Shown: piece by piece, positions 2,046 to 60,097 of the stretch
Numbering within the stretch: the stretch's first letter is position 1
Layout of the letters: every line of letters begins with the position of its first letter
Assembly (NCBI RefSeq): GCF_900186995.1
Contig: NZ_LT906463.1
Location: 682,001 to 746,000 of the forward strand
Source of the DNA: Haemophilus pittmaniae
GTDB lineage: Bacteria > Pseudomonadota > Gammaproteobacteria > Enterobacterales > Pasteurellaceae
Direction of reading: 5' to 3'
Length of the DNA stretch: 64,000 bases
The notes under the pieces: model-generated
Told to the model about the DNA's origin: nothing
Database searches by the model: none
The model's input: only the letters and a program-made list of their open reading frames with translations
Translations under genes and position numbers: made by a program

Positions 2046-3467
2046 ATGAAACAGGGACAGGTTTCTTTTGGTATAGCGAGGGCGCATAGGCTAGGAAAAT
2101 GCATATATCGTGCCTTATTAGGGGGATTAGTGCTGTTATGCAGTACTCAGCTTGCCGCCGATGAGAATTCGGTGTTTTCGGTTCGTCTTAAACAGGCGCC
2201 ATTAGTGGCGACATTACAGCAGCTGGCACTAACGCAAAATATCAATTTGTTAATTGATGATGAGCTAGAAGGCAATTTATCCCTGCAGTTGGATAATGTG
2301 GATGTGGATCGTCTATTACGTGCAACTGCCAAAATTAAAGGTCTTTCCTTTCATCAAGAAAACGGCATCTACTATCTCGGCAAATTATCGGAAAATGAAA
2401 AATATGCCGGACAAATGAGTACACCCAATACGCTCGAACCTGCGGATATAGCTGGAACTTCTGTAGCGGTGGAACCCAATTTGCAACATGCCACAATCAA
2501 ATTACATTTTGCGAAAGCGCAGGATGTTCTGAAAACTCTTACCGGAGGTAGTGGTAGCCTGCTTTCAGCGAATGGTGCAGTAAGTTTTGATGAACGCAGT
2601 AATCTGCTATTAATTCAGGATGATGCGCGTTCCTTAAGAAATATTAAAAAATTAGTTGCCGAACTGGATAAGCCCATCGAACAAATTGCGATAGAGGCCC
2701 GCATTGTTACGATTACCGATGAAAGCCTGAAAGAATTGGGAGTGCGCTGGGGGATCTTTAATCCTGCGGCAGAGTCACATCGAGTTTCGGGCAGTTTGGC
2801 TGCCAATGGTTTCAACGATATTGCTAATCAGCTAAATATCAATTTTGCCGGAGCGATTAATCCGGCCGGTTCCGTTGCGTTGCAGGTGGCGAAAATTAAT
2901 GGCCGCCTATTGGATTTGGAATTAACCGCTTTAGAGCGTGAAAATAATGTGGAAATCATCGCTAGTCCACGTTTGCTCACAACTAATAAAAAGAGTGCCA
3001 GTATCAAGCAAGGAACCGAAATTCCTTATGTGGTTACTAATGGGCGTAATGATACGCAGTCGGTAGAGTTTCGCGAAGCTGTACTTGGGCTTGAAGTGAC
3101 ACCTCATATATCCAAGGATAATACAATTTTGTTGGATTTATTGGTTAGTCAAAACTCACCAGGGAATCGGGTTTCTTACGGACAAAATAGTGAAGTTGTC
3201 TCAATTGATAAACAGGAAATTAATACGCAAGTGTTTGCTAAAAATGGTGAAACTATTGTGCTGGGCGGAGTATTTCATGACACCATCAGTAAGGGCGAAG
3301 ACAAGGTGCCGTTGTTGGGAGATATTCCTGGGATAAAACGATTGTTTAGCCGACAAAGCGAACGTCATCAAAAAAGGGAATTGGTGATTTTTGTCACTCC
3401 GCATATTCTCACTCCAGGCCCCTTGCCGGCAGGATTTCATCCTGGCAAGCAAAAGAAATCGCAATAA
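2046..3467 (+). CDS. comE: Competence secretin ComE (PilQ-like outer-membrane pore)
   Basis: 473 residues, the outer-membrane channel for the type IV pilus and incoming DNA. Visible parts: a signal peptide within the first ~38 residues, an STN-type N-terminal domain (about 43-108), a secretin N1 domain (about 150-215) and the secretin core (about 270-460). The core includes the family signature VPLLGDIPGIKRLF near residue 421. Length fits the Haemophilus protein (about 445) plus a slightly longer leader. An AGGAG site precedes the ATG. The stop codon TAA is also the first bases of a dispersed repeat (copy 1), which separates comE from comF. Confidence 0.93.
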   Translation: MKQGQVSFGIARAHRLGKCIYRALLGGLVLLCSTQLAADENSVFSVRLKQAPLVATLQQLALTQNINLLIDDELEGNLSLQLDNVDVDRLLRATAKIKGLSFHQENGIYYLGKLSENEKYAGQMSTPNTLEPADIAGTSVAVEPNLQHATIKLHFAKAQDVLKTLTGGSGSLLSANGAVSFDERSNLLLIQDDARSLRNIKKLVAELDKPIEQIAIEARIVTITDESLKELGVRWGIFNPAAESHRVSGSLAANGFNDIANQLNINFAGAINPAGSVALQVAKINGRLLDLELTALERENNVEIIASPRLLTTNKKSASIKQGTEIPYVVTNGRNDTQSVEFREAVLGLEVTPHISKDNTILLDLLVSQNSPGNRVSYGQNSEVVSIDKQEINTQVFAKNGETIVLGGVFHDTISKGEDKVPLLGDIPGIKRLFSRQSERHQKRELVIFVTPHILTPGPLPAGFHPGKQKKSQ

Positions 3468-3539
3468 ACGCCCCTATGATTTGCAAAGTTTTTCTGGAAA
3501 ACGCGTCTAAGTTATTGATTTTATTATGGTTGAGTAAAA
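3467..3539 (+). repeat. Dispersed ~75-bp intergenic repeat, copy 1
   Basis: Begins AACGCCCCT in the comE stop codon, has the core TAAGTTATTGATTTTATT at 3508-3525, and runs up to the comF ATG. It fills the whole comE-comF gap and therefore supplies comF's upstream sequence; no clear ribosome site is visible in it. One of nine copies found by eye in this window. Confidence 0.85.
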
Positions 3540-4235
3540 ATGCAGTTTTCTCCATCTTTTTGGCAGTTTAGTTGCGTGCATTGTGGCCAACCTTTGTATT
3601 TTGGTGCCCATGGACTTTGTTGTCGCTGTCGCCGAACAATCGTTGCGCCCGATTATTGTGGGCGCTGTGGAGCGCCCTTGAGTAAACCGGCAATGGGCTG
3701 CGGTCATTGTTTGGCGGCACCTCCGGCATGGGAGCAAATGGTGGTGGCGGGACGTTATTTGGAGCCGCTTTCGACACTGATTCATCGTTTTAAATTTCAG
3801 CATCAATTTTGGTTAGATGGAACGTTAGCACGTCTGCTTTATTTGGCGGTACGCGAAGCGCGCGCGAAGCATGGCTTGCTCTTGCCAGAAGCGTTAATCC
3901 CTGTACCTCTGCATCATTGGCGACAATGGCAACGCGGTTATAACCAAGCGGATTTATTGACGAATTGGCTGGCAAAAAAATTAGCGTTACCAAATGCCGG
4001 ACAAATTGTGCAGCGGGTGAAAAATACTCCGACCCAGCGCGGCTTAACGCCGGGTGAACGAGCGCATAATGTCACCGATGCTTTTGCTCTGAATGAAAAA
4101 ATGTCGTTTCCGTATCAACGCGTAGCTTTAATTGATGATGTGATTACTACGGGAGCTACTTTAAATTCCTTGAGCCAATTGTTGCGTCAGGCGGGGGTAC
4201 AGCATATTCAAGTGTGGGGATTGGCGCGGGCTTAG
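3540..4235 (+). CDS. comF: ComF amidophosphoribosyltransferase-like competence protein
   Basis: 231 residues, close to the 228-229 of H. influenzae ComF (Com101A). The N-terminus has a zinc-finger pattern (CVHC at 12-15, CCRC, YCGRC, CGHC). The C-terminal half is a type I phosphoribosyltransferase fold with the PRPP-binding loop VALIDDVITTGAT at about 197-209. ComF is cytosolic and needed for moving transforming DNA across the inner membrane; the enzymatic substrate is unknown. The ATG at 3540 is the first start and directly abuts repeat copy 1, with a poor Shine-Dalgarno sequence. Confidence 0.93.
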   Translation: MQFSPSFWQFSCVHCGQPLYFGAHGLCCRCRRTIVAPDYCGRCGAPLSKPAMGCGHCLAAPPAWEQMVVAGRYLEPLSTLIHRFKFQHQFWLDGTLARLLYLAVREARAKHGLLLPEALIPVPLHHWRQWQRGYNQADLLTNWLAKKLALPNAGQIVQRVKNTPTQRGLTPGERAHNVTDAFALNEKMSFPYQRVALIDDVITTGATLNSLSQLLRQAGVQHIQVWGLARA

Positions 4236-4312
4236 CGGAAAAGATTGGTATTTTGTTGGCCAGAGGAGTATCATCTCCGACAATTTTTATCAAGTAAAGA
4301 AGAAGGGAATTT

Positions 4313-4897
4313 ATGCAAAATATTTCAATTTCAGCAGCGGCTCAAGCACATTTTCGGAAACTCTTAGACACTCAGGAAGAAGGAACTAATATTCGAGTTT
4401 TTGTTGTGAATCCGGGGACGCCAAATGCCGAGTGCGGCGTTTCTTATTGTCCGCCGAATGCGGTGGAAGCCAATGATGTGGAAATGAAATACGATACTTT
4501 TTCCGCATTTGTGGACGATGTCAGCTTACCATTTTTGGAAGACGCGGAAATTGATTATGTCACGGAGGAATTGGGGGCGCAGCTTACCTTAAAAGCACCA
4601 AATGCAAAAATGCGCAAAGTGGCTGATGATGCACCGTTGATTGAACGGGTGGAATATGTCATTCAAACTCAAATTAATCCACAATTAGCCAGCCATGGTG
4701 GACGTATTACTTTGATCGATTTAACCGAGGACGGCTATGCAGTGTTGCAATTTGGTGGTGGTTGTAATGGTTGCTCTATGGTGGATGTGACTCTCAAAGA
4801 TGGCGTGGAAAAACAATTGGTAAGCATGTTTCCAAATGAATTGAAAGGCGCACGCGATGTAACCGAACATCAACGTGGAGAACATTCCTATTATTAA
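4313..4897 (+). CDS. nfuA: Fe-S biogenesis protein NfuA
   Basis: 194 residues. The N-terminal ~100 residues form an A-type-carrier-like domain (with a CGVSYC pair but not the full A-type cysteine set). The C-terminal NifU-like domain carries the catalytic CNGC at residues 151-154, the site where a [4Fe-4S] cluster is held between two monomers. NfuA delivers clusters to apoproteins under oxidative or iron stress. A good AAGAAGGGA ribosome site lies upstream. Its position next to comF is shared with Haemophilus. Transcription probably ends at the terminator-like stem at 4924-5014. Confidence 0.95.
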
Positions 4898-4923
4898 TTC
4901 ACAACTCTAATAGCAATTTTAGA

Positions 4924-5014
4924 AAAAAACGCGGTGTTTTAAAGGCGTGCTAATAAAATCAATGACTTAGGGTTGATTTTAAGTAAAAGTCTGACAAACG
5001 ATGCCGCGTTTTTT
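4924..5014. terminator. Terminator-like stem (AAAAAACGCGG/CCGCGTTTTTT) with a repeat in its loop
   Basis: AAAAAACGCGG at 4924-4934 is perfectly complementary to CCGCGTTTTTT at 5004-5014. Symmetry means it can end transcription from nfuA (+) and hypF (-). The 69-nt loop is unusually long and consists almost entirely of dispersed repeat copy 2, as if the element had inserted into an ordinary terminator. An alternative reading is that part of the right arm (AACGCGG on the minus strand) belongs to the repeat itself. Confidence 0.55.
4940..5010 (-). repeat. Dispersed ~75-bp intergenic repeat, copy 2
   Basis: Minus-strand copy between nfuA and hypF; core AATAAAATCAATGACTTA at 4952-4969. It is more diverged than the AACGCCCCT copies: its start reads AACGCGGCATCG, like copy 4 (AAACGCACTATCG), so copies 2 and 4 may form a subfamily. 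Confidence 0.75.
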
Positions 5015-5120
5015 ATTTGCCATTGCTAAAATCATTAGAATGTTTCAGCGCTACTTTAATTAAATTTCAATAAAATTGATTGAGTATTGTTTTGGCAAGC
5101 TCATCGCAATCAAGGGGCAT

Positions 5121-7409
5121 TTATGCCTGTAATTTTGCTGCAGCGATCACCGCTTGCCCCAAACTTAAACCACCATCGCCCATTGGATATGCATGGGCGC
5201 TAAATACTTGAAAGTCAGCTAAAGCTTGCTTGCACAGGCGGCGTAGCAACTGATTATGCCAAACCCCGCCTGATAGTACGATGCGTTCGCATTGATATTG
5301 TTGTGCCATATTGCGCGCCAATTCGGCTAATCCTTGGGCAAGTGCGTAGTGGAAGGCGAATGCTAGCGCTTCAGGTGTTCCTTCGGCAGTTAAAAATGCC
5401 TGCCAAAAGACAGCTAAATCCAACCGATTACCTTTTAGCGGCATACGTATATTGCGTAAGAGTTCAGGTAAATTGGTGCTATCAAGCTGCTGTCTGGCAA
5501 AGCTTGAGCGGGCGGCCTGTGCTTCTAAAATACAGGCTGCCTCCCCTTCCCAAGAAAGTTTATGCGGTGCCAATGTTAAGGCAAAAGCAACAGCATCAAA
5601 TAGTCGCCCGGCCGAGGAAATTGGTGGGCAATTGAGTTTTCGTTCAATTGCTTTTGCCAGTAGTGGCCAATCGGTGTTGATGCCGCGTCGTGTCATCCAA
5701 TTTTGCCAATCGGGTACAAATTGTTGCAAATGTGCTAAAAAATTACGCCAAGGTTCTACTGCCGCACGATCTCCGCCCGGCAAGGCTACCGCAGGCAAGC
5801 CACCTAAGTGATAACAGGTTTTATCATCCGCCAAAAGGCATTCACCACCCCAAAGTTGCTGATTTTCTCCCATGCCGATGCCATCAAGAGCCAAACCGAT
5901 CACTTGACCTTGTAAGTTATGTTCGGCCATAACGGAAACGATATGCGCATGGTGATGTAGTACTTCGACATAGGGCACTTGAAACTCATCTGCCAAGGCA
6001 AGGCCACTTTGGTGGGTAAAATAGCCGGCATGACAGTCAACTGCGATGGCTTGCGGGGCAAATTGATAGATTTGGCGGAAAAGTGCGAGATTATCAATTA
6101 ATTGCTTTTTGACTAGTTCATTATTGGTATCACCGATGTGCTGACTGACGACTGCACGTTGGCTGCGAGCTAGGCAAAAGGTATTTTTAAGATCGGCCCC
6201 CAACGCTAATATAGGTTTCTCAATCGCTTGCGCAAGCGCTGTTTCATCGGGCACATAACCGCGAGCCCGTCGAAGAGTTTCGGTGCCATCAAAGGCAGCC
6301 CTTACTAGCGAATCATCAGCACGTTGCAATATGTCTCGATTGTGAAATAGGAAGTTATCCGCCAATCCGGCTAATTTGCTTTGTGCGTCTTCATTTTTTA
6401 ATACTGGTGGCTCCCCCGAAGGGTTGGCGGAGGTCATGACTAATGGCCGATTCACAGCATGTAATAACAGATGTTGGAGCGGGTTTGAAGGTAACATGAC
6501 GCCAATTTCATTCAGCCGCGGAGCGATAGCTTCAGTAACATGTGGCACTTTGTCCTTTGCCAGTAAAACAATAGGGGCAGCTGGGGAGCTTAATAAACGG
6601 ATTTCGGCCTCGCTGAGAGCAGTAAGAAATTCCAAATTAGGAACCATTATGGCTAAGGGTTTGCTAGGACGATGTTTGCGTTGACGCAATGTGTGTACGG
6701 CATGTTCATTTCCTGCATCGACTGCAAGATGAAAGCCGCCAATACCTTTGATAGCAATAATTTTTCCATCTTTGAGTAATTGTGCAGCTTGTTCAATCGC
6801 CTCATCGTATTGGCTGAGTACTTGTGTTTGGTCGCTTAGCCAAATATGCGGGCCACAATCGGCGCAAGCATTGGGTTGGGCATGGAAACGACGATCGGCG
6901 GGATTTTGGTATTCGTTTTTACATTGTGGACAAAATGGAAATGCCGCCATGGATGTATTTGGGCGATCATAAGGAATGGCTTTGATAATGGTAAAACGCG
7001 GACCGCAATGGGTGCAGTTAATGAAAGGGTAGTGATAGCGACGGTTATTGCGATCAAATAATTCCCTTAGACAGTCTGGACAGGTGGCAGCATCAGGGAC
7101 GATTTGGGTATCCATAGCGTTGTTTTCACTTTCACGGATTAGAAACTCATCATGTGGAATGTCTGATGCACTAATTTGCCGTTGGCTGAGCGCGGTAATT
7201 TTTGCCAACGGTGGTAATTCCTGTTGTAGTGCTTGTAGAAATTGCGTGAGCTTTTTTTCTTCCGGTGCATAAAAACGGACTAATACGCCTTGTCCATCAT
7301 TATTGACATCCCCAAATAAGTTAAAGCGGTTGGCTAATAACCAAACAAAAGGGCGAAAACCAACGCCTTGAACCTTTCCTTTAATTCTTAATTCAATTCC
7401 GTTTTGCAT
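5121..7409 (-). CDS. hypF: Carbamoyltransferase HypF, [NiFe]-hydrogenase maturation
   Basis: 762 residues, normal for the family. HypF makes the carbamoyl group that becomes the cyanide ligands of the [NiFe] active site, using carbamoyl phosphate and ATP. Domains in order: acylphosphatase-like (about 1-95, GKVQGVGFRPFVW), a double zinc finger with eight cysteines (C110/113, C132/135, C160/163, C182/185), a YrdC-like domain (about 200-380) and a Kae1-like C-terminal domain with the HHHAHIVSV metal site. It is transcribed away from the hyf operon. hypABCDE are not in the window, so they must lie elsewhere. There is no clear Shine-Dalgarno; the start is set by alignment to the family N-terminus. 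Confidence 0.96.
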   Translation of the reverse strand: MQNGIELRIKGKVQGVGFRPFVWLLANRFNLFGDVNNDGQGVLVRFYAPEEKKLTQFLQALQQELPPLAKITALSQRQISASDIPHDEFLIRESENNAMDTQIVPDAATCPDCLRELFDRNNRRYHYPFINCTHCGPRFTIIKAIPYDRPNTSMAAFPFCPQCKNEYQNPADRRFHAQPNACADCGPHIWLSDQTQVLSQYDEAIEQAAQLLKDGKIIAIKGIGGFHLAVDAGNEHAVHTLRQRKHRPSKPLAIMVPNLEFLTALSEAEIRLLSSPAAPIVLLAKDKVPHVTEAIAPRLNEIGVMLPSNPLQHLLLHAVNRPLVMTSANPSGEPPVLKNEDAQSKLAGLADNFLFHNRDILQRADDSLVRAAFDGTETLRRARGYVPDETALAQAIEKPILALGADLKNTFCLARSQRAVVSQHIGDTNNELVKKQLIDNLALFRQIYQFAPQAIAVDCHAGYFTHQSGLALADEFQVPYVEVLHHHAHIVSVMAEHNLQGQVIGLALDGIGMGENQQLWGGECLLADDKTCYHLGGLPAVALPGGDRAAVEPWRNFLAHLQQFVPDWQNWMTRRGINTDWPLLAKAIERKLNCPPISSAGRLFDAVAFALTLAPHKLSWEGEAACILEAQAARSSFARQQLDSTNLPELLRNIRMPLKGNRLDLAVFWQAFLTAEGTPEALAFAFHYALAQGLAELARNMAQQYQCERIVLSGGVWHNQLLRRLCKQALADFQVFSAHAYPMGDGGLSLGQAVIAAAKLQA

Positions 7410-7413
7410 AATT

Positions 7414-7432
7414 TAAAATAATAATTATTATC
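7414..7432 (-). promoter_or_regulatory. Possible Fur box in front of hypF
   Basis: Read on the minus strand, this 19-mer (GATAATAATTATTATTTTA) matches 14 of 19 positions of the Fur consensus GATAATGATAATCATTATC and lies 5-23 nt before the hypF ATG. The region is very AT-rich, so a chance match is quite possible. Confidence 0.3.
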
Positions 7433-7597
7433 AAGTTTAAATTTATCTTGTTACTCATTGGAATAATAAAATTTCTTTTAAATTCAAATAAATATAACAA
7501 GTCTTATATTTACATTAGATAATTTTAGAGGAAAGTTACTAATTATTTAAATATATTTTTAAACAAAGCTAAATCCGTCCAAATATTTAATTCTTCC

Positions 7598-7611
7598 ATG
7601 ATCTTAATCAA
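7598..7611 (+). promoter_or_regulatory. Putative FNR box of the hyf operon
   Basis: ATGAT-CTTA-ATCAA matches the FNR consensus TTGAT-N4-ATCAA at 9 of 10 positions. It lies about 140 bp before hyfA in the divergent hypF-hyfA region. A TAATTAT at 7639-7645 could be the matching -10 element, which would place FNR near -41 to -46, an activating position. This agrees with anaerobic induction expected for formate hydrogenlyase. No sigma-54 promoter or HyfR/FhlA-type regulator gene was seen. Confidence 0.55.
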
Positions 7612-7643
7612 CAAAAATTAAAACTACCCTGGTTGAGGTAATT

Positions 7644-7694
7644 ATGAAGGAGTATCCTCAGTATCGGAGTGGTTATTTGGGAGCCTGTACTTAG
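7644..7694 (+). CDS. Possible 16-residue leader peptide before hyfA
   Basis: Short open frame encoding MKEYPQYRSGYLGACT. A strong-looking TGAGG ribosome site sits 5 nt before its ATG, better than that of many real genes here. Its last codons and stop lie inside a potential hairpin (7676-7711), so translation would open that hairpin. Against it: if the TAATTAT at 7639-7645 is the -10 element, the peptide's ribosome site would not be transcribed. Speculative. Confidence 0.3.
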   Translation: MKEYPQYRSGYLGACT

Positions 7695-7711
7695 GTGAAG
7701 TCGCCCCCAAA
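7659..7711 (+). promoter_or_regulatory. Structured 5' leader of the hyf operon
   Basis: CTC/GAG (7657-7659 with 7666-7668) could close a small hairpin. TTTGGG (7676-7681) pairs with CCCAAA (7706-7711), enclosing a second hairpin GCCT/AGGT (7683-7686 with 7693-7696). No U-run follows, so this is not an intrinsic terminator. I could not match it to the molybdenum-cofactor or nickel/cobalt riboswitch consensus from memory. Otherwise the 337-bp hypF-hyfA gap holds only AT-rich promoter sequence. Confidence 0.35.
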
Positions 7712-7746
7712 ACTATATTTAAACGTTTACTATCTAGGGAGAGATT

Positions 7747-18614: not shown

Positions 18615-19065
18615 GAATTTAATTTTAACCGTAGGCAATTCCATGATGGGAGATGATGGAGCCGGTCCTTATTTGTATCAGTTGCTTACGGAGAACCCAT
18701 TGTCGGATTGGGAAGTGATTGATGGTGGTTCTGCTCCAGAAAATGTGGCGCATCAAATTCGTCAATTAAGGCCTAAGCGATTATTGATTGTGGATGCAGC
18801 GGACATGGAATTGCCTCCAGGAAAAATTCGGATCATTGATAAAGATGCTATTGCCGAGTTATTTTTTGTCAGTACTCACAATATGCCATTAAATTTTTTG
18901 ATTGAGCAATTAGAAGAAGATATTGCGGAGATTGTGTTTGTTGGTATCCAGCCGGATTTAGTTTCTTTTGGCTTTCCTATGACAGAAACTGTTCGTGACT
19001 CGGTGCAGTTTCTGTATGATTTTTTACGTGAAGGTCGAACATTAGATGAAATTCCGCCGCTATAA
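18604..19065 (+). CDS. hycI: Hydrogenase maturation protease HycI
   Basis: 153 residues, GTG start inside the end of hyfJ. Aspartyl-type endopeptidase (M52) with the metal-sensing residues in GNSMMGDDGAGP and DAADMELPPG and the conserved THNMPLNFL. It cleaves the C-terminal tail of the nickel-loaded large subunit HyfG. Very close to E. coli HycI through the first ~130 residues. Last gene of the operon; its TAA stop also provides the first bases of repeat copy 3. hycI is at the end of the hyc operon in E. coli; here it serves the hyf operon. Confidence 0.94.
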   Translation: MTTENLILTVGNSMMGDDGAGPYLYQLLTENPLSDWEVIDGGSAPENVAHQIRQLRPKRLLIVDAADMELPPGKIRIIDKDAIAELFFVSTHNMPLNFLIEQLEEDIAEIVFVGIQPDLVSFGFPMTETVRDSVQFLYDFLREGRTLDEIPPL

Positions 19066-19140
19066 ACGCCCCCTTAGAGAAAAAAGTTTTTGCTAAAACA
19101 AGGTGTAAGTCATTGATTTTATTGGTATTGATTTAAAAAT
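19065..19140 (+). repeat. Dispersed ~75-bp intergenic repeat, copy 3
   Basis: Begins AACGCCCCC in the hycI stop codon; core TAAGTCATTGATTTTATT at 19106-19123, followed by GGTATTGATTTAAAA. Same placement as copies 1 and 5. Confidence 0.85.
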
Positions 19141-24230: not shown

Positions 24231-24254
24231 ATATTGCCGTTAATTTATCGATTT

Positions 24255-24327
24255 TTATACCACCTCTAATAAAATCAATGACTTAGCCTCTATTTTGGAG
24301 AAAACGTTGGAAAACGATAGTGCGTTT
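24255..24327 (-). repeat. Dispersed ~75-bp intergenic repeat, copy 4
   Basis: Minus-strand copy upstream of comM; core AATAAAATCAATGACTTA at 24268-24285, AACGC end at 24322-24327. Resembles copy 2. With copy 5 it brackets comM in inverted orientation. Confidence 0.75.
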
Positions 24328-24365: not shown

Positions 24366-25892
24366 ATGTCATTAGCAATTGTGTATAGTCGCGCGTCGAT
24401 GGGAGTACAGGCTCCTTTAGTTACTATTGAAGTACATTTAAGTAACGGCAAGCCTTGCTTTACTTTGGTCGGTTTGCCGGAGAAAACCGTGAAAGAGGCG
24501 CAGGATCGGGTGCGTAGTGCTTTGTTGAATGCCCAGTTTAAATATCCCGCCAAGCGCATTACGGTGAATCTTGCGCCGGCGGATTTACCAAAGGAAGGCG
24601 GGCGTTTTGATTTGCCCTTAGCGATAGGGATGTTGGTGGCAATGGAACATATTCCTGCGCAGCGCCTGCAAGCCTTTGAGTTATTGGGTGAGTTGGCGTT
24701 AACCGGTGAATTGCGAGGAGTACATGGGGTGATTCCGGCAATTTTGGCCGCGCAAAAGGCTCGTCGAATTGCCATTGTAGCGGCACAGAATGCTAATGAG
24801 GCAGCTTTGGTAGCGAATGCCAATTGTGTGATTGCTCGTAATTTGCTGGAGGTCGTGCAGTTTCTCAATCAGCAAATTGAGTTGCCAAATGCAGCGGATT
24901 TTCAACAGCAGAGCACTCAGACATTGCCATCCTATAGTTTGGATTTGACGGATATTATCGGTCAACAACACGCCAAACGAGCACTTACGATTGCCGCTGC
25001 AGGGCAACACAATTTGCTCTTTTTAGGACCTCCCGGCACCGGAAAAACCATGTTGGCTAGCCGTCTTACCACAATATTACCGGAAATGAGTGATCAAGAA
25101 GCCATTGAAACGGCCTCTGTAACCAGTTTGGTGCAAAACGAACTGAATCTACATAATTGGAAACAACGCCCATTTCGAGCCCCCCATCATAGCGCGTCAA
25201 TACCGGCCTTAGTGGGAGGAGGCTCTATTCCCAAGCCGGGAGAAATTTCCTTGGCGCATAACGGCGTGTTGTTTTTGGATGAGTTGCCGGAGTTTGAGCG
25301 CAAGGTGTTAGACGCGTTACGTCAGCCGTTGGAAAGCGGTGAAATTGTGATTTCCCGTGCCAATGCGAAGATTTGTTTCCCCGCCCGTTTTCAGTTGATT
25401 GCAGCGATGAACCCTAGCCCAACCGGTCATTATAGCGGAGTACACAATCGTACTTCACCACAGCAAATGATGCGTTATTTAAATCGTTTATCGGGGCCAT
25501 TTTTGGATCGCTTTGATTTGTCTATCGAAGTACCTTTGTTACCGCAGGGCAGTTTGCAACAAAATGTCGATCGCGGCGCTGATAGCGCAACGGTACGTCG
25601 GCAGATTCTACAGGTACGGGAAATGCAATTGGCTCGGGCCGGAAAAATTAACGCTTACTTGAGCGGTAAGGAAATTGAACGGGACTGCAAGCTCACGCTG
25701 GAAGATGCCTTGTTCTTGGAAAAAGCCCTGAATAAATTAGGTTTGTCGGTGCGTGCCTACCATCGTATTCTCAAGGTCGCGCGCACTATTGCCGATTTGC
25801 AGCAGGAGGCGCAAATTAATCGCACTCACTTAGCCGAAGCCCTTGGTTATCGCGCAATGGATCGCTTATTGCAAAAATTATCCGCGCTTTAA
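24366..25892 (+). CDS. comM: Competence protein ComM (YifB family AAA+ ATPase)
   Basis: 508 residues. N-terminal Lon-protease-like domain (about 1-170), Mg-chelatase-type AAA+ core with Walker A GPPGTGKTML (about 220-229) and Walker B GVLFLDELPEF (about 300), and a C-terminal Mg-chelatase domain. ComM is a hexameric helicase that extends heteroduplex during natural transformation, acting after DNA entry. Its CRP-S-like site supports control with the competence regulon. The stop codon is shared with repeat copy 5. Confidence 0.95.
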   Translation: MSLAIVYSRASMGVQAPLVTIEVHLSNGKPCFTLVGLPEKTVKEAQDRVRSALLNAQFKYPAKRITVNLAPADLPKEGGRFDLPLAIGMLVAMEHIPAQRLQAFELLGELALTGELRGVHGVIPAILAAQKARRIAIVAAQNANEAALVANANCVIARNLLEVVQFLNQQIELPNAADFQQQSTQTLPSYSLDLTDIIGQQHAKRALTIAAAGQHNLLFLGPPGTGKTMLASRLTTILPEMSDQEAIETASVTSLVQNELNLHNWKQRPFRAPHHSASIPALVGGGSIPKPGEISLAHNGVLFLDELPEFERKVLDALRQPLESGEIVISRANAKICFPARFQLIAAMNPSPTGHYSGVHNRTSPQQMMRYLNRLSGPFLDRFDLSIEVPLLPQGSLQQNVDRGADSATVRRQILQVREMQLARAGKINAYLSGKEIERDCKLTLEDALFLEKALNKLGLSVRAYHRILKVARTIADLQQEAQINRTHLAEALGYRAMDRLLQKLSAL

Positions 25893-25965
25893 ACGCCCCT
25901 TACAAAATCAGAGTTTTGCTATAAATAACGCATAAGTCATTGATTTTATTGATATTGAAATTAAA
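25892..25965 (+). repeat. Dispersed ~75-bp intergenic repeat, copy 5
   Basis: Begins AACGCCCCT inside the comM TAA stop; core TAAGTCATTGATTTTATT at 25933-25950. It runs into the comM/carB terminator. Confidence 0.85.
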
Positions 25966-25998
25966 ACGCCGTCAAGGGTTATTGACGGCGTTAATTTT
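25965..25998. terminator. Bidirectional terminator between comM and carB
   Basis: AACGCCGTCAA/TTGACGGCGTT, 11-bp perfect stem with a 6-nt loop; T-rich on the right for comM and A-rich on the left for carB on the other strand. Confidence 0.85.
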
Positions 25999-32448: not shown

Positions 32449-32450
32449 AA

Positions 32451-32525
32451 AACGCCCCTGCGAATTTCAGAGCTTTGCTTAAAATACATGCTAAGTTATT
32501 GATTTTATTAGGGTTGATTTTAGAA
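32451..32525 (+). repeat. Dispersed ~75-bp intergenic repeat, copy 6
   Basis: Starts AACGCCCCT 2 nt after the ridA stop; core TAAGTTATTGATTTTATT at 32492-32509 followed by AGGGTTGATTTTA. It is the closest copy to the apparent consensus. Confidence 0.85.
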
Positions 32526-42458: not shown

Positions 42459-42490
42459 AACCCCGGGCAAGTGCTCGGGTTTTGTTTTTT
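42459..42490 (+). terminator. Terminator of rplJL-rpoBC
   Basis: AACCC-c-GgGC...GCtCGGGTT stem and a T-rich tail (TTTTGTTTTTTT). It is followed directly by repeat copy 7. Confidence 0.8.
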
Positions 42491-42566
42491 TACGCCCCTA
42501 TGAAAATCGAAGTTTTTACTAAAACAGAGTGTAAGTTATTGATTTTATTATGGTTGGTTTAAAGAT
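42491..42566 (+). repeat. Dispersed ~75-bp intergenic repeat, copy 7
   Basis: TACGCCCCTATGAAAATC start (one base off AACGCCCCT) directly after the T-run of the rpoC terminator; core TAAGTTATTGATTTTATT at 42532-42549, then ATGGTTGG. Confidence 0.85.
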
Positions 42567-44509: not shown

Positions 44510-44584
44510 TTTTTAAATCAATTCTAATAAAATCAATAACTTACAATGTGTTTTCGTGAAAAGTTTTATTTTTAAGGGGCGTTT
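44510..44584 (-). repeat. Dispersed ~75-bp intergenic repeat, copy 8
   Basis: Minus-strand copy between yagU and the carbonic anhydrase gene; core AATAAAATCAATAACTTA at 44526-44543, AAGGGGCGTT at the right end. Confidence 0.85.
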
Positions 44585-49289: not shown

Positions 49290-49293
49290 GAGA

Positions 49294-51250: not shown

Positions 51251-51265
51251 GACTCATTTATGTCC

Positions 51266-51347
51266 TTGATATTCTGTTTGAGTATCCTGAAAACGGGCTT
51301 TTCAAGATCAGAATATCAATAAGTTAAATTAATAGGAGTGCATAGTG
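51266..51347 (+). promoter_or_regulatory. Alpha-operon ribosome-binding-site pseudoknot (S4 target)
   Basis: TTGATATTCTG (51266-51276) pairs with CAGAATATCAA (51309-51319). The enclosed TTTGAGTATCCTGAAAAC and GGGCTTTTCA are the same as in the E. coli alpha operon leader, as is the AGGAGTGCATAGTGGCCCG start region. S4 binds this pseudoknot and blocks translation of rpsM. The outer stem sequence differs from E. coli while pairing is kept, which supports real structure. Confidence 0.92.
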
Positions 51348-51701
51348 GCCCGTATTGCAGGCATTAACATTCCTGATCACAAACACGCTGTAATCGCTTT
51401 AACTGCAATTTACGGTATCGGTAAGACTCGTTCTAAAAGCATTTGTGCTGCTGCGGGGATTGCTGAAGATGTTAAGATCAGCGAATTGTCTGAAGAGCAG
51501 ATTGACAAACTGCGTGACGAAGTTGGTAAATTTACCGTTGAGGGTGATTTACGTCGTGAAGTAACACTAAACATCAAACGTCTTTTAGACTTAGGTTGTT
51601 ATCGTGGTTTACGTCATCGTCGTAGTTTACCGGTACGTGGTCAACGTACTAAAACTAATGCGCGTACCCGTAAGGGTCCACGTAAGCCGATCAGAAAATA
51701 G
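51345..51701 (+). CDS. rpsM: 30S ribosomal protein S13
   Basis: 118 residues, GTG start as in E. coli, inside the S4-controlled pseudoknot. [20 protein letters not shown] and the basic C-terminal tail [20 protein letters not shown] are typical. It forms bridges to the 50S subunit and contacts tRNA. Confidence 0.98.
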
Positions 51702-54200: not shown

Positions 54201-54219
54201 TTTAGTACTATAAATATTT

Positions 54220-54246
54220 AACCCGCTTTTATAGCGGGTTTTTTAT
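54220..54246 (+). terminator. Terminator of the spc/alpha operons
   Basis: AACCCGCT/AGCGGGTT with a 5-nt loop and TTTTT tail. Confidence 0.9.
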
Positions 54247-54257
54247 TATTTCAAATA

Positions 54258-54286
54258 AAAAGCCTATCTAGTGAGGATAGGCTTTT
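54258..54286 (-). terminator. Terminator after gph
   Basis: AAAAGCCTATC/GATAGGCTTTT, 11-bp perfect stem; on the minus strand it is followed by TTTTTATTT. It lies 16 bp after the gph stop. Confidence 0.85.
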
Positions 54287-54301
54287 AGTATTCAAGTGTA
54301 G

Positions 54302-54976
54302 CTATAAAATATTTTTTAGTTGGGCAAAATCTTCAAAAACCCAGTCTGGATTCGATTCTGCTATCGGAATATTGTAGTTGTAACCATAAGTTAGACCAAC
54401 GACAGCGCATCCCGCAGAATGGGCTGCTAGGATATCGTTTTTCGAATCACCAACAAATAGAATTTGACGAGGTTCTAGTCCGAATTTTCCACATAGATAG
54501 TAGAGCGGGCCAGGGTGTGGCTTAATAGCAGGTAGAGATTGCCCCCCTAGCATTTCACTAAAAAATGATTCGATTCCGAATGCTTCTAATACCGGTAAAA
54601 CATGTCGGGTTGGTTTGTTTGTTACAACAGCCAATAAGTAACCTTGTTCTTTTAAATATTGGAGTGTTTCTTTTACATTTGGATATAGTCGACTGATATT
54701 GCAAAGATTTTCGGCATAGTGGAAATGGAAACGTTCTTTAACTTGCTCAATTTTAGCTTCACTGAGTTCTCTACCGGTTTGAACTTTTGCCCAATCTAAT
54801 GCGCGGGCAATTAACACTGGGGCGCCATTGCCAATCCAAGTCAGCACCAACTCCTCAGATGCTTGAGGTAATCCAAGATCAGCTAATGCTGAATTTACAG
54901 ATAGTGCTAAATCTGGAAGACTGTTTACTAGTGTGCCGTCCAGATCGAATCCAATTAATTTAAATTGAGTTTTCAT
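54302..54976 (-). CDS. gph: Phosphoglycolate phosphatase
   Basis: 224 residues, HAD-superfamily hydrolase: motif I GFDLDGTLVNS, motif II VVTNKPTRH, motif III/IV LFVGDSKNDILAAHSAG. It removes phosphate from 2-phosphoglycolate, a product of DNA end repair. It follows rpe by 9 bp on the same strand, the usual rpe-gph pair. Confidence 0.93.
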   Translation of the reverse strand: MKTQFKLIGFDLDGTLVNSLPDLALSVNSALADLGLPQASEELVLTWIGNGAPVLIARALDWAKVQTGRELSEAKIEQVKERFHFHYAENLCNISRLYPNVKETLQYLKEQGYLLAVVTNKPTRHVLPVLEAFGIESFFSEMLGGQSLPAIKPHPGPLYYLCGKFGLEPRQILFVGDSKNDILAAHSAGCAVVGLTYGYNYNIPIAESNPDWVFEDFAQLKNIL

Positions 54977-54985
54977 TATACAACC

Positions 54986-55657
54986 TTATTTTATAGATGA
55001 GAGTTCAGAACGCATTTTATCAATAATTTGTTTATAGTCTGTTTTGCCAAAAATAGCAGAGCCAGCAACAAACATGTCCGCACCGGCTGCAGCAATTTCA
55101 GCAATATTGTCTACTTTTACGCCGCCATCAATTTCTAAACGTATATCTAAACCGCTTTCATCAATTAAGCGACGCGCTTGACGTAATTTATTTAATGTAG
55201 ATGGAATAAATGATTGTCCACCAAATCCAGGGTTCACCGACATGAGTAAAATGACATCCACTTTATCTAAGACATAATCTAAATAACTAAGAGGAGTGGC
55301 TGGATTAAACACTAATCCGGCTTTACAGCCATGATCGCGAATAAGCTGTAATGAACGATCAATATGTTCAGAAGCTTCAGGATGAAATGTGATGTAATTA
55401 GCTCCGGCTTTAGCAAAATCGGGAATAATGCGATCAACGGGTTTTACCATCAAGTGCACATCAATAGGCGCTTGGATCCCATAATCACGTAATGCCTGAC
55501 AAACTGCAGGACCAAATGTTAAGTTTGGAACATAGTGGTTATCCATGACATCAAAGTGAATCACATCAGCACCAGCATTAAGCACATTTTTCACATCGTC
55601 GCCTAAGCAGGCTAAATTCGCAGAAAGTATTGAGGGGGCTATAAGATAGGGTTTCAT
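54986..55657 (-). CDS. rpe: Ribulose-phosphate 3-epimerase
   Basis: 223 residues, TIM-barrel. Metal and catalytic residues appear in [30 protein letters not shown], and [13 protein letters not shown]. Interconverts ribulose 5-phosphate and xylulose 5-phosphate in the pentose phosphate pathway. AAGGAGAATCCC precedes the ATG. Confidence 0.96.
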
Positions 55658-55743
55658 GGGATTCTCCTTAAAGTAAACTTTACTTAGTTTACTACGTTAA
55701 GGTGAAATTTTCTTGGTTAATTAATTCTGCTTCGAGAATTACC

Positions 55744-55776
55744 CAAAAATAAACCGCATTATAATAAATGCGGTTT
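55744..55776 (-). terminator. Terminator after the OsmB-like gene
   Basis: AAACCGCATT/AATGCGGTTT, 10-bp perfect stem with a 6-nt loop; on the minus strand it is followed by ATTTTTG. Arms again carry the AAATGCGGT variant. Confidence 0.75.
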
Positions 55777-55788
55777 ATTGAAAAGAAA

Positions 55789-55992
55789 TTATCTATGAAC
55801 CTGGCTACCGATAACACCTCCAAGCGCAGCTCCGCCAAGAGTTGTTGCAGCATTACCGCCGAGCATATAACCGGCAGTACCACCGATAGCAGCACCAACC
55901 GCGGTATTTTTCTGGCTGCGACTCATGTTTTCACAGCCGGCAACAGCAACGATTGTCATTAAAATAGCGAGTGTTTTTGTCATAAATTTCAT
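55789..55992 (-). CDS. OsmB-like glycine-zipper lipoprotein
   Basis: 67 residues. Lipoprotein signal ending IVAVAGC (Cys 20). The mature part NTAVGAAIGGTAGYMLGG...LGGAALGGVIGSQVHR is a double glycine zipper, resembling E. coli OsmB in pattern and size. OsmB is an osmotically induced outer-membrane lipoprotein of unclear role. Start at 55992 with CGGAGAGATCC upstream; a nearby in-frame ATG three codons on is an alternative. Confidence 0.75.
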   Translation of the reverse strand: MKFMTKTLAILMTIVAVAGCENMSRSQKNTAVGAAIGGTAGYMLGGNAATTLGGAALGGVIGSQVHR

Positions 55993-56150
55993 AGGATCTC
56001 TCCGTGTAAAATAGAAGGCCATCAATCGTGATGGCCGCTATTAAGACAGAGGTTGGTTAAGAAAAGTTCACTTATGAAATTTGAATGTTGATTTTTATGA
56101 TAAGCAGAATTAAGATTTTGCGCGATTTATTAACCCGTTAAGGACATAAC

Positions 56151-56858
56151 ATGAAAAAACTAACTCAACTTTCCCTTTCATTAATCTTAGGCTTTTCACT
56201 TTCTACCGCCTTTGCTGCAAAAACTGAGCCTTATACACAACCAGGTACGAATGCTCGTGAAATGTTGGTGGAGCAACCAATTCATTGGATTTCTGTTGCT
56301 CAATTGAAGCAGGAATTAGAAGGTAAAGCTCCAATTAACGTGAGCTTTGATATCGATGATACCGTTATGTTTACTAGTGCTTGTTTCTTCCATGGACAAC
56401 AAAAGTATTCACCAGGAAAACAGGATTACTTAAAAAATCAAGACTTCTGGAATGAAGTAAATGCCGGTTGTGATGAATATTCTATTCCAAAACAAATTGC
56501 TGTGGACTTAATTAATATGCACCAAGAACGTGGCGACCAAATTTACTTTATTACTGGCCGTACTGCGGGTAATAAAGATGGTGTGACACCAGTTTTACAA
56601 AAAAACTTTAATATCAAAGATATTCATCCAGTTGAATTTATGGGCGGACGTGATCGCACAACGAAATACAATAAAACACCGGCAATTATTGAACACAAAG
56701 TGACCATTCACTACGGAGATAGTGATGATGATATCTTAGCGGCTAAAGAAGCAGGAATTCGTGGCATTCGTTTAATGCGCGCAGCTAATTCGACTTATCA
56801 GCCAATGCCAACTCTAGGTGGTTACGGTGAAGAAGTTTTGATTAACTCAAGCTACTAG
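56151..56858 (+). CDS. aphA: Class B acid phosphatase AphA
   Basis: 235 residues, periplasmic (signal peptide about 1-22, ending AFA). DDDD-type phosphatase: the nucleophile motif FDIDDTVMF at about 65 and the C-terminal GDSDDDILAAKEAG. It hydrolyses nucleotides and other phosphomonoesters outside the inner membrane, which in Haemophilus-type organisms can supply nicotinamide riboside or nucleosides. It is monocistronic, with its own terminator. Confidence 0.94.
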   Translation: MKKLTQLSLSLILGFSLSTAFAAKTEPYTQPGTNAREMLVEQPIHWISVAQLKQELEGKAPINVSFDIDDTVMFTSACFFHGQQKYSPGKQDYLKNQDFWNEVNAGCDEYSIPKQIAVDLINMHQERGDQIYFITGRTAGNKDGVTPVLQKNFNIKDIHPVEFMGGRDRTTKYNKTPAIIEHKVTIHYGDSDDDILAAKEAGIRGIRLMRAANSTYQPMPTLGGYGEEVLINSSY

Positions 56859-56869
56859 TCTTAAAGATA

Positions 56870-56907
56870 AAAAGTAGACCGCCATTTTAAGGCGGTCTAC
56901 TTTTTTA
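56870..56907. terminator. Bidirectional terminator between aphA and the TonB-dependent receptor gene
   Basis: AAAGTAGACCGCC/GGCGGTCTACTTT, 13-bp perfect stem with a 7-nt loop and T-run on the plus strand; also T-rich on the minus strand. Confidence 0.9.
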
Positions 56908-56920
56908 TTAAGGTTATGGA

Positions 56921-59257
56921 TTAGAAACGGATTTCAATTGATGCGGAATAATTACGTCCTGGCGCGTAGTAGCGTTCAAGACCCAATCCTTTTTCATCAA
57001 TATTATTTGTGGTGCTATGTGCATTGATGCCACGTAATGCGTCCCAAGTATGATATTTTTCATTAAATAGGTTATACACACCTGCTCTTAATGTAATATC
57101 TTTTGTGACTTTATAAAAACCGAATAAATCGAATACGTAGGCAGATTTATTAAGGTATTTATAGTTATCTACAGATTGATATAACTCTTCTTTTGAACAA
57201 ATGTCTCTACCGAACCAAGGGTCATAAGTCCATACTAGACAACGCTTGTTAATTTCAAGGGTTTTGGCATCTTTTGCTTTTTTACCGCCTAAGTAGGTTA
57301 GTCTGCTAAAGATTCCCCATTTACCATCCGGATCTTCATAATCAAGCCCTAAAACCGCTTTTAGTGGTTGAATTGAAAGCAGGTTGGTTGAATTTGATAA
57401 TTTGCCTTTGCTATAACCCAATGCACCATATAGTTTTAAACCTTTAGGTGCTGGAAGAACCGTATCCAAATTGAGGTTTCCTTTTACCTCAATACCGGTT
57501 ACTCGAGCATTATCAACATTGACCATCTGCTGCATTGGTGTTTGGTAAGTCCGTCCATACTGAGTTTGTTCAATAATACTTTCTTGTTCAAATAAGAAAT
57601 TCCGATAACGGGTCTGATATAGATTAATATCAAGCATACCTTTTTCATTTTGTGCTTTAGCAAAAAGAGTATGATTGACACTACGCTCTGACTTCAATCC
57701 AGGATTAGATTTCCATGTGCCATATGCATTGGTAAAGCTGAAATACAACTCTGTGGCAGTAGGAATTCGATAGCCTGTACTGAGTTGATAACCAAATTTC
57801 CAAGTATCTGTTGTTTGGATATCTAGACCAAGAAAACCACTCCAATTTGAGAAACTACTTTGTGCAGGTTCACCTTCAGCTAAACAAGCTTTGCTACAAG
57901 GTGCATTTAAACCTTTTGGCGAAAGTTTGGCGTAATCGTAACGAGTGCCAATATTGGCAGAAAATATTGGTTTCCAACCGCTTTCGAAATGAGGACGCCA
58001 TGTGATTTGATCTTTTAATGACGCTCCGTACATTTTGGTTTTTACAGGTCGTTGAATGGTATACCATTCGTCCAATCCATATTCATTGGTGTCATGGTTA
58101 ATATTTCTAAATACCCGTTCACTAGCATATGTTTTAAAAGATAAAACATGTTCGCCTCCCCAATTAAACGGCATACTTTCTAACTCAGCAGAGGCACGTT
58201 TAAATTCAGTTTTCATTCGACGATCGAAAACTTCACCCAATTGTTTCTCATTTGTTCGCCAGTGCCGTAGGCCTTTATAGTTAACAGCGGCTAAATCTGT
58301 TTTTTGGTAATCAACATCGAATTTACTAAATGCTAAGTATTTAGAGTCCGGTGTATAGAGATAATAGGCGTTGACATTGATACGTTTACTCTGGTCGTCA
58401 GCTTCGCGCCAAGCACTTCCAAAAGAGGTATAGCTACGTTCATCCACATATCGGCTACCTTGCTGTCCGTTAATACCAATACCGATCTTATGATGGGGAG
58501 TAAGCTGATAACCAAGCTTCGCTAAATAGCTATGGAAGCGAGAGGTAACCGGATCTGGATGTTGGCTTTTGGTGGTATTGAAGTAAGGACCATCTCCTCT
58601 ACTTTTCAGTTCATGGCCTGTACGTTGTGAATACATTAAAATAGCATCTACTTTATCGCCGACATATCCAACGCCGATAGTTCTAACCCATTCACTATTT
58701 TTGCTGGCATATCCACCGCGTAATAAAGCGCCAAATTTATTATTAGGTTTAACAATGTCCTGAGCTTCTGCAGTCCGGTAATTAACGCTACCACCTAAAG
58801 CACCACTACCGGAATTAAGTGCATCTGAACCACGAATGATGTCAATATCTCTGACTAACTCTGAATCAATACTCAAACGTGAGGAGTTAAAGTTTCCATA
58901 ACGTGAATAAAGTGAATTCTCTTCGCTATCCGGTAAATTCACACCATCGACACTAATCCCAACTCGGTTTCCTTCAACTCCACGGATGGAAAAACCTTTT
59001 AGGAACCGTCCATTGTCACTAATCCCAACATCGGTGGTATAGCGCACTAAATCACGAGTATCTCTGATGAGCTCTTTTTGAATGGTCTCTGCGTTTTTAT
59101 GAATAACGGCCGTTTGTGTTTGACGGGTTGTATCAACCTCTCCCTGCACTTGGATTTCATCTAATTTTTCTTCAGCTAATGCCATATTGGCGCTTGATAA
59201 GCAAATAGTTATCGGTAATAGCTTATAAACCGTTAGCAGGATTTTATTGTTTTTCAT
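56921..59257 (-). CDS. TonB-dependent haemoglobin/transferrin/lactoferrin-family receptor
   Basis: 778 residues. Signal peptide to about residue 28 (NMALA). TonB box region EEKLDEIQVQG, plug domain (IRGVEGNRVGISVDGVNLPDSEE; IIRGSDALNSGSGALGGSV) and a 22-strand barrel ending in ASIEIRF. In the barrel YRIPTATELYFSF and NPGLKSE resemble the FRAP and NPNL boxes of haem receptors but are not exact. Four cysteines lie in two loop pairs (APCSKACLAE and RCLVW...DICSKE). The ligand is probably haem or haemoglobin but is not proven. Start at 59257 leaves a proper AAAGG spacing; the ATG 9 nt upstream does not. A Fur box lies 73 bp upstream. Confidence 0.88.
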   Translation of the reverse strand: MKNNKILLTVYKLLPITICLSSANMALAEEKLDEIQVQGEVDTTRQTQTAVIHKNAETIQKELIRDTRDLVRYTTDVGISDNGRFLKGFSIRGVEGNRVGISVDGVNLPDSEENSLYSRYGNFNSSRLSIDSELVRDIDIIRGSDALNSGSGALGGSVNYRTAEAQDIVKPNNKFGALLRGGYASKNSEWVRTIGVGYVGDKVDAILMYSQRTGHELKSRGDGPYFNTTKSQHPDPVTSRFHSYLAKLGYQLTPHHKIGIGINGQQGSRYVDERSYTSFGSAWREADDQSKRINVNAYYLYTPDSKYLAFSKFDVDYQKTDLAAVNYKGLRHWRTNEKQLGEVFDRRMKTEFKRASAELESMPFNWGGEHVLSFKTYASERVFRNINHDTNEYGLDEWYTIQRPVKTKMYGASLKDQITWRPHFESGWKPIFSANIGTRYDYAKLSPKGLNAPCSKACLAEGEPAQSSFSNWSGFLGLDIQTTDTWKFGYQLSTGYRIPTATELYFSFTNAYGTWKSNPGLKSERSVNHTLFAKAQNEKGMLDINLYQTRYRNFLFEQESIIEQTQYGRTYQTPMQQMVNVDNARVTGIEVKGNLNLDTVLPAPKGLKLYGALGYSKGKLSNSTNLLSIQPLKAVLGLDYEDPDGKWGIFSRLTYLGGKKAKDAKTLEINKRCLVWTYDPWFGRDICSKEELYQSVDNYKYLNKSAYVFDLFGFYKVTKDITLRAGVYNLFNEKYHTWDALRGINAHSTTNNIDEKGLGLERYYAPGRNYSASIEIRF

Positions 59258-59329
59258 GTTTAGCATCCTTTAATAATCAAAAAATGGTGTTGGGATTGTA
59301 AAAAAGAAATGAATAGAAAGGTAGATAAA

Positions 59330-59348
59330 AATAAGAATGATTCTTATT
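59330..59348 (-). promoter_or_regulatory. Fur box of the TonB-dependent receptor gene
   Basis: AATAAGAAT-G-ATTCTTATT, a perfect 9-1-9 palindrome that matches the 19-bp Fur consensus at 12 positions. It indicates iron-repressed expression. Confidence 0.75.
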
Positions 59349-59502
59349 TCTGTGATCTGGAGCAAATTACCAGCTAGGCTTCATTTGGAGGGGCTATATA
59401 AAATGGATAATTAATGAACAGAAATACTGTACCATAAGGCAACAATACAACTTTGCCGGAAGAAACGGTTTAAGCGAATGATAGGGGGCAAGGGGCAGGC
59501 TA

Positions 59503-59529
59503 GTGGTGCAAGCCGAGGCAATGCACCAC
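59503..59529. other. Strong nested hairpin in an otherwise empty intergenic region
   Basis: GTGGTGCA (59503-59510) pairs with TGCACCAC (59522-59529) and encloses GCC-GA-GGC. No T-run follows on either strand. The 338-bp region 59258-59595 otherwise contains the Fur box and no supportable gene. Confidence 0.5.
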
Positions 59530-59595
59530 CTCACCCAACAAAAAGGAGAATTTGAGATAACTGAGTAATCATCTGAGATTACATAGCATGGCAAG

Positions 59596-59910
59596 CTATT
59601 TGTTATCTAAAATTCTGGCAACCAACTTGAGGTATTCTACGGCCAGACCACGTTGGGTTACGCTGGCATTAAATACGGGATCTTCACCCAACACGCCACA
59701 AGGAAAATCGGATGGGATCTCACCTTGTTCATAGGCATCAAAATCTTCTCGCCAATTCCCGTCAAAATAGTAGGCCTCTAAAGCTTCTATTTTGGGTAAG
59801 AAATCTAGCCATTTTTGTAAGAATTGTTCGGCTTCGGCTAAAAAGGTTTCCGACTGATTCAAAATCTCTTCCATTTCCGCGATATGCTGTAAACGTGCTT
59901 TCGATAACAT
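59596..59910 (-). CDS. DUF4298 domain protein
   Basis: 104 residues, soluble and acidic. The sequence follows the DUF4298 pattern: an N-terminal helix RLQHIAEMEEILNQSETFL, a central YYFDGNWREDFDAYEQGEIPSDFPCGVLGEDPVFN and a short C-terminal helix. No function is known. Single-gene unit; a repeat copy lies upstream. The start has AATGTTAT only, a weak ribosome site. Confidence 0.7.
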   Translation of the reverse strand: MLSKARLQHIAEMEEILNQSETFLAEAEQFLQKWLDFLPKIEALEAYYFDGNWREDFDAYEQGEIPSDFPCGVLGEDPVFNASVTQRGLAVEYLKLVARILDNK

Positions 59911-60025
59911 TGGGACTCCAAAATGCTAAAAATAAATCATGCTGCATCAGTTTACGTATTATAGGCCTTTTACAAGGCTCTTGTGCCGCCGAATTTTTGC
60001 AATTAACTGCTTTTATCCCCATTTT

Positions 60026-60097
60026 TAAATCAACTCTAATAAAATCAATGGGTTACGTGTTGTTTTTAGAAAGACTCTATAAATCGAGGGGGCGTTT
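60026..60097 (-). repeat. Dispersed ~75-bp intergenic repeat, copy 9
   Basis: Minus-strand copy between the DUF4298 gene and gnd; core AATAAAATCAATGGGTTA at 60038-60055 (two changes from consensus), GGGGGCGTTT at the right end. In gnd's reading direction it lies after the gnd terminator. Confidence 0.8.

Follow-up and report, generated by a model that had tools for sequence, protein, structure and literature searches.

A dispersed 76-bp intergenic element with an internal IHF consensus in the genome of Haemophilus pittmaniae

The window described here is a stretch of 64,000 nucleotides of the Haemophilus pittmaniae genome (bases 682001-746000 of a single contig of 2,181,355 bases). It carries nine copies of a dispersed element of 76 bp, which starts with AAACGCC, ends with TTTAAAA(A), and lies between genes such as nfuA and hypF or ysxC and comM/yifB, or next to stop codons such as those of hycI and ridA. 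Nine copies had been listed in an earlier note on this DNA; all are present, and a profile search of the window returns exactly nine (Table 1). Gene calls are uncurated longest-open-reading-frame (ORF) calls, and the gene names, like the rpoC-like guesses, were given by eye. No described repeat family was matched in what could be searched. A scan of the window with Rfam at gathering threshold yielded Alpha_RBS only (the alpha operon ribosome-binding site, at 51263-51377) and no match on the element. The repeat was not described in the literature searched, which did not include subscription papers and cannot prove that the repeat is unpublished.

The edges of the unit are sharp, with the information content climbing at AAACGCC and dropping after TTTAAAA. 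The left flank is near background information, and the right flank carries an A/T pattern. Copies were studied mainly in a sample of 864 kb, made up of the window and 40 stretches of 20 kb distributed across the genome. It contains 134 copies, corresponding to about 338 genome-wide by scaling. The distance from position 1 to the ATTGATTTTATT core is 48 bases in 125 of these copies, 47 in six, and 49 in three. In the whole genome, a 28-base split pattern with up to three mismatches found 324 copies against 0 in the reversed control, and the core with up to two mismatches gave 316 matches against 1. Chance is excluded, since these numbers lie far above the reversed controls, and the genome holds hundreds of copies beyond the nine listed in the note. 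Only five of the 134 sample matches are less than full length, and among 24 weaker matches only one (18.4 bits) exceeds the reversed control. The total information of the element is 84 bits, compared with 13.7 bits required to locate 324 sites, and exceeds the need of one ordinary protein site.

Positions 43-55 of the element read YAANNNNTTGATW; reverse-complemented, this is the IHF consensus WATCAANNNNTTR given in PMC3682984. The consensus is exact in all 125 gapless copies of the sample, and shuffled versions of the element consensus contained a match in 308 of 20000 trials. By itself the match is suggestive; it gains weight because of the conservation pattern, in which positions 46-48 are free and TAA and TTGATT are fixed. 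The genome has three genes of the HU/IHF family, of which two exceed the curated cut-offs for IhfA and IhfB, while the third is closest to HU-alpha and falls slightly under the cut-off of that model. Occupancy of the element by IHF is predicted on these grounds.

Mean pairwise identity of the copies is 69%, and only 2 of 7750 pairs are more than 90% identical. One such pair, near 567,670 and 1,492,192 and in opposite orientation, has identical sequence and near flanks, and is read as a duplicated chromosome segment because the flanks are identical. The other consists of two copies 1.2 kb apart, also in opposite orientation. The tests for target-site duplication, coupling and selection were restricted to gapless copies (125 of 134 in the sample; 140 of 149 including extra loci). 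At the 23 variable columns of the 140 gapless copies the nearest-neighbour distance is 0.348, against 0.367 after column shuffling, which means that these columns retain no record of descent; rarefaction of this distance is flat from 80 copies upward. At the nine IHF positions there are 2 mismatches in 1260 cells, compared with about 282 expected under drift like that of the variable columns (a rough figure, obtained by halving the nearest-neighbour distance). The lost descent signal, the intact IHF positions and the near-absence of fragments together indicate that resident copies are individually maintained, and suggest selection on them rather than recent transposition. Constraint acting only during copying would predict long terminal branches with broken cores; none were seen, and ongoing maintenance is favored.

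In the genomes searched the element is restricted to this lineage. Among 139 other Pasteurellaceae genomes, two gave one match each. The match in G084 (three mismatches) was judged a chance match on sight. G080, a member of another genus, has one perfect copy between genes read by eye as hisD and hisC. About 30 bp after this copy begins a segment 93-95% identical to the H. pittmaniae hisC region, and the shared segment ends at the base where H. pittmaniae carries its own copy (L142 7544-13936 against L127); upstream of hisC the H. pittmaniae sequence differs from that of G080. By comparison of the two loci, the segment was horizontally transferred from this species or a near relative, and the element copy probably came with it. 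Of 394 genomes sampled from the order, that of H. pittmaniae alone matches at up to two mismatches. An origin from phages, plasmids or viruses was rejected, as only short weak matches were found in phages (three records) and plasmids (one record); two pattern matches in viral contigs (L157, L158), whose alignments span no more than about 40 bp, were put down to chance. Five of the ten congeners searched agree at 100% identity with named records at the comM locus, of which four are labelled H. parainfluenzae and one Haemophilus sp. HMSC068C11, and congener comM shows 71-72% identity to that of H. pittmaniae. H. pittmaniae and H. parainfluenzae are reported as a monophyletic cluster in PMC13076348. 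A record labelled Pseudomonas stutzeri NCTC11607 encodes a ComM protein 82% identical to that of H. pittmaniae, and by this likeness is probably a misnamed Pasteurellaceae genome.

The copies fall into two classes, a long class flanked by GTGACAT boxes (described below) and a short class that comprises the others. For placement, 125 of the 134 sample copies could be assigned to gaps between genes and nine were unassignable. Convergent gaps are enriched, with 44 of 101 holding a copy (47 copies, where free gap length predicts 21.7; p 8e-8), and divergent gaps are depleted (8 copies against 37.4 expected, p 1e-10). Tandem gaps hold 70 copies (65.8 expected), in neutral orientation (35 sense, 34 antisense); the short copies among them are nearer the stop in 43 cases and nearer the start in 14. 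The left edges of short copies touch or overlap a stop (gap -2 to 0) in 19 of 71 cases, while random placement within the same gap gives 4.5 expected and a maximum of 12 in 2000 trials, which agrees with the proximity to stop codons described in the earlier note. Right edges show no excess of stop overlap (3 of 72; 2.8 expected), but 16 of 72 are found between -2 and +5 relative to a stop (7.6 expected, maximum 16). None of the long copies is found within 5 bp of a stop (0/22 and 0/20; about 1 expected). In each of the 18 cases with an overlap of one or two bases, the stop is TAA and is completed by A's that belong to the element, which would fit insertion exactly where a reading frame ends. 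On each side and strand, 24-28 of 115 short copies have a terminator-like hairpin next to them, compared with 18 of 820 random windows; inside the element such a hairpin occurs in only 1 of 115. Where a stop lies within 5 bp on the left, 11 of 25 copies precede such a hairpin; on the right this holds for 5 of 17. The comM locus illustrates the arrangement. In relatives, comM stops no more than three codons away from the same place, and in H. parainfluenzae records a few bases separate the stop from a terminator-like hairpin; in H. pittmaniae the element sits between stop and hairpin.

In the window itself, the stop codons named by the note behave as it stated. The ComE-like secretin, HycI and ComM/YifB all end in TAA, whose last two letters are the first two of the element, and a single base separates the element from the ridA stop. 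The statement that all copies are intergenic holds for eight of them after pruning of overlapping ORFs, leaving the stop overlaps aside. The ninth lies inside an ORF of 159 aa (59712-60191), which is probably spurious; in the unpruned list, short antisense ORFs also cross some copies.

Table 1. Copies of the element in the window (positions are those of the window)
Copy	Position	Strand	IHF consensus	Context
1	3466..3541	+	3508-3520	Overlaps TAA stop of ComE/PilQ-like secretin
2	4936..5011	-	4957-4969	Between convergent nfuA and hypF
3	19064..19139	+	19106-19118	Overlaps TAA stop of hycI
4	24252..24327	-	24273-24285	Between tandem ysxC and comM/yifB, antisense to both
5	25891..25966	+	25933-25945	Overlaps comM/yifB TAA stop; convergent gap; terminator-like hairpin after element, spotted by eye
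6	32450..32525	+	32492-32504	One base from ridA stop
7	42490..42565	+	42532-42544	Starts TTACGCC; order is ORF ending 42440, terminator-like hairpin (by eye), element, transaldolase gene
8	44510..44584	-	44531-44543	One base shorter; after ORF ending 44464
9	60022..60097	-	60043-60055	77 bp past gnd stop (minus strand); TAACCC subtype

The element contains A/T tracts at intervals of 8-11 bp, and the series extends into the right flank at 80-84, 92-95, and 103-107. The strength of the right-flank A/T period of 10.5-11 bp in short copies is 0.056, above all 2000 shifted controls, and it is similar (0.045-0.049) in 26 copies where this flank lies in or beside the neighboring gene. Couplings between columns that rise above the shuffled maximum all join bases at most 3 apart (AAA or TTT at 15-17, 28-29, 7-8, 46-47, and others), and may be read as a DNA-shape signature; among the gapless copies, no coupling between distant columns went beyond the shuffled maximum.

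Comparison of flanks revealed AATGTGACAT on both sides of some copies. The pattern AAYGTGACAT has 29 matches in the sample, 28 of them at most 40 bp from an element and on the element's strand; four altered box patterns gave 1-4 matches each. The boxes lie at offsets of -11 or -12 on the left and +82 to +86 on the right. Genome-wide there are 56 matches against 5 for the control, and 19 box pairs with a spacing of 94-98 bp, in most cases 96-97. Each congener yields 5-11 matches (controls 1-4), none of them paired among the matches listed. A congener site with both core and box (L035, L036) was dismissed as chance, as it lies in a long open frame (L036 736-3018) with a core-to-box spacing of 73 and not 42. 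Copies were placed in the long class when their boxes matched in at least 6 of 7 and at least 5 of 7 letters, and 30 such copies were read, 17 of them within the sample of 134. GTGAC of the left box is present in 30/30; in the right box GAC is present in 30/30, and G and T each in 29/30. This conservation is partly a matter of definition, and the gap between the classes is better evidence: decayed boxes beside short copies did not rise above control windows. Long cores are less alike than short cores (67% against 72% identity), so the long class is not the younger one; this, with the lack of decayed boxes in short copies, rules out the boxes as marks of young copies. The GC skew of the sampled stretches places the origin near 0.49 Mb and the terminus near 1.64 Mb; a pattern search for dif gave no match, and both positions rest on GC skew. 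In the terminus half lie 24 of 30 long and 47 of 117 short sample copies (Fisher 1.6e-4). Within the sample only, under a slightly different class rule, the figures are 16 of 18 and 46 of 114 (1.8e-4), and of the box places genome-wide, a few of which are not beside an element, 28 of 37 are in this half (p 0.003). The IHF site, the phased A/T tracts, and the long class with its paired boxes are additions to what the earlier note described.

The element is interpreted here, with a probability of about 0.6, as an architectural nucleoprotein site acting at the DNA level, formed by IHF and partner proteins, which was dispersed in the lineage and then kept by selection. IHF would bind positions 43-55 and bend the DNA sharply, and further proteins may contact AAACGCC (1-7), GTTTT/AAAA (23-35), and TTG.TTTAAAA (66-76). 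These contacts, with the A/T tracts near the helical repeat reaching into the right flank, could wrap some 115-130 bp of DNA compactly. In the long class the bend would join the two GTGACAT boxes, 94-98 bp apart, and the boxes would bind a further protein. Such sites would be placed where few promoters are disturbed, chiefly in convergent gaps and near stops, and their most likely role is that of architectural or topological landmarks, for folding or for buffering transcription-driven supercoiling. An ancestral copy may have been copied around the chromosome by some machinery, the copies afterwards being held by selection. A bolder version of this interpretation, offered tentatively, is a lineage-specific, nucleosome-like positioning system. 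In it, about 324 sites would have IHF and at least one sequence-specific partner wrapping about 115-130 bp at gene ends, while the terminus-biased GTGACAT class would be read by another protein, giving two-tier landmarks derived from one copied ancestral site.

Several observations weigh against the architectural interpretation. The IHF consensus is short, with 289 exact matches in the 864-kb sample, elements included. The left flank is also periodic, more weakly (up to 0.026) and above its 2000 shifted controls. The overlap with stop codons could stem from insertion rather than function, and congeners of the H. parainfluenzae group manage without the element (0 copies in the ten searched). 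The profile was seeded with core-bearing copies, and copies with a badly broken core could escape it, though partial matches reached down to 27.6 bits. The constraint calculation covers 140 of about 324 copies, of which 28 are long-class and 13 of those were fetched deliberately. Selection is inferred from one genome, and the constraint could partly reflect a former copying requirement.

Known counterparts of the element occur in Escherichia coli. Boccard and Prentki in 1993 reportedly described IHF-binding RIB repeats at the 3' ends of its transcription units. To our knowledge, the IHF-binding gene-end repeats of E. coli, known since at least 1993, are without a settled function. BIME-1 consists, according to PMC2817692, of an IHF-binding stretch between two facing REP palindromes. 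The element resembles RIB and BIME-1 in being dispersed, extragenic, located at the 3' ends of genes, and provided with an IHF site, in its case by sequence only. It differs in having no facing REP palindromes, and no sequence relation was found. It may well function like RIB/BIME-1 but is not assigned to that family, because the defining palindromes were looked for and not found; a pattern for the E. coli REP-like core has 2 matches in the whole 864-kb sample. One Y1_Tnp gene is present in the genome and also in two of the ten congeners without the repeat (G008 and G010). It encodes a Y1 transposase of 177 aa, perhaps a RAYT with repeats of its own. With this single gene common to two element-free congeners, an origin by REP/RAYT is considered doubtful; the search covered Y1_Tnp and no other transposase or integrase family.

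A selfish, non-autonomous mobile element, resembling a miniature inverted-repeat transposable element (MITE) or a REPIN, is an unlikely alternative. Its copies would be turning over, with IHF aiding transposition and the boxes needed by the transposase. The sharp edges, the confinement to one genome of 140 in the family save for the single G080 copy, the rarity in divergent gaps, and the stop overlaps, explicable by insertion with an element-supplied TAA, are all consistent with it. A precedent exists in Neisseria, where the 155-bp form of Correia/NEMIS is, according to PMC2229807, a nearly always intergenic MITE whose internal IHF site binds IHF in vitro. The element likewise is a short intergenic repeat with an internal IHF site, here a predicted one. 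Correia has terminal inverted repeats, whereas comparison of the two ends of the element gives 2 matching bases of 20 for the consensus (mean after shuffling 6.2) and a mean of 3.8 per copy. Target-site duplications were not found in short copies either, whose flanks share 6-mers in 60 of 112 cases (60.5 expected), 8-mers in 4 (7.2), and 10-mers in 0 (0.9); the shared flanks of long copies are their boxes, the same in all. Ends of the MITE or insertion sequence (IS) type were rejected for lack of these two features. The scarcity of close pairs, one of them with identical flanks, the near-absence of fragments, and the sharing of the sole Y1_Tnp gene with element-free congeners also speak against turnover. 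A mobile element with a preference for 3' ends had been proposed in the earlier note; the dispersed family and the gene-end preference stand, and current activity finds no support in the inverted repeats, target duplications, close pairs or fragments sought.

Less likely again is a strong DNA gyrase site, in which the A/T tracts would wrap on the GyrA tail, the copies would absorb positive supercoils between convergent genes, and IHF would serve as a helper. PMC6379681 describes an E. coli gyrase motif of about 130 bp with a 10.75-bp GC periodicity in its arms, an enrichment of gyrase sites in BIME-2 repeats, and a negative association between gyrase and IHF sites. The element shows phasing of 10.5-11 bp up to about +107. 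Like strong gyrase sites and the extragenic BIME-2 repeats, it has a base composition phased with the helix along at least about 100 bp, and its enrichment in convergent gaps would suit the proposed role. Yet its periodicity is mainly one-sided while the gyrase motif is symmetrical, it has an IHF core and no REP units, and the negative association with IHF sites reported for E. coli also speaks against this reading.

A macrodomain or segregation site, with the long class bound by an organizer of the Ter region, MatP or a ParB-like protein, is improbable. The bias of the long class to the terminus half is in its favor. MatP is encoded in 11 of 11 genus genomes, and the canonical matS (the MatP site, GTGACRNYGTCAC) has 0 exact matches in the H. 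pittmaniae genome. The presence of MatP where its canonical site is absent is suggestive only, because ten of the eleven genomes, H. pittmaniae included, lack exact matS. The boxes read AAYGTGACAT and not matS, those listed in congeners are unpaired, and the long class is a minority. Exact matS is found in only one of the 11 MatP-encoding genomes, and the MatP site of the group may differ. An IHF bend between specific boxes, as proposed for the long class, is also a feature of P1 parS-type and lambda att-type nucleoprotein sites, of which a replicon carries one or a few.

An RNA element of the 3' untranslated region (a terminator, stability or processing signal), the other proposal of the earlier note, is very improbable, for although copies lie at or just past stops and often before terminator-like hairpins, they are strand-neutral relative to genes, hardly ever contain such a structure, show no distant covariation, and form no consistent strong hairpin, as the note had itself remarked, with folds that scarcely beat shuffled sequences (z -0.43 and -0.14; mononucleotide shuffles, 80 copies).

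The family, for which no sequence relation to the gene-end repeats of E. coli was found, is far more regular than these and apparently selected at hundreds of places. The ten searched congeners that lack it provide a natural comparison of genomes with and without the element. Its excess information, dinucleotide couplings, and two classes lead to precise predictions for IHF, for gyrase, and for an additional partner. Through it one could learn whether repeats at gene ends serve to insulate transcription or to fold the chromosome.

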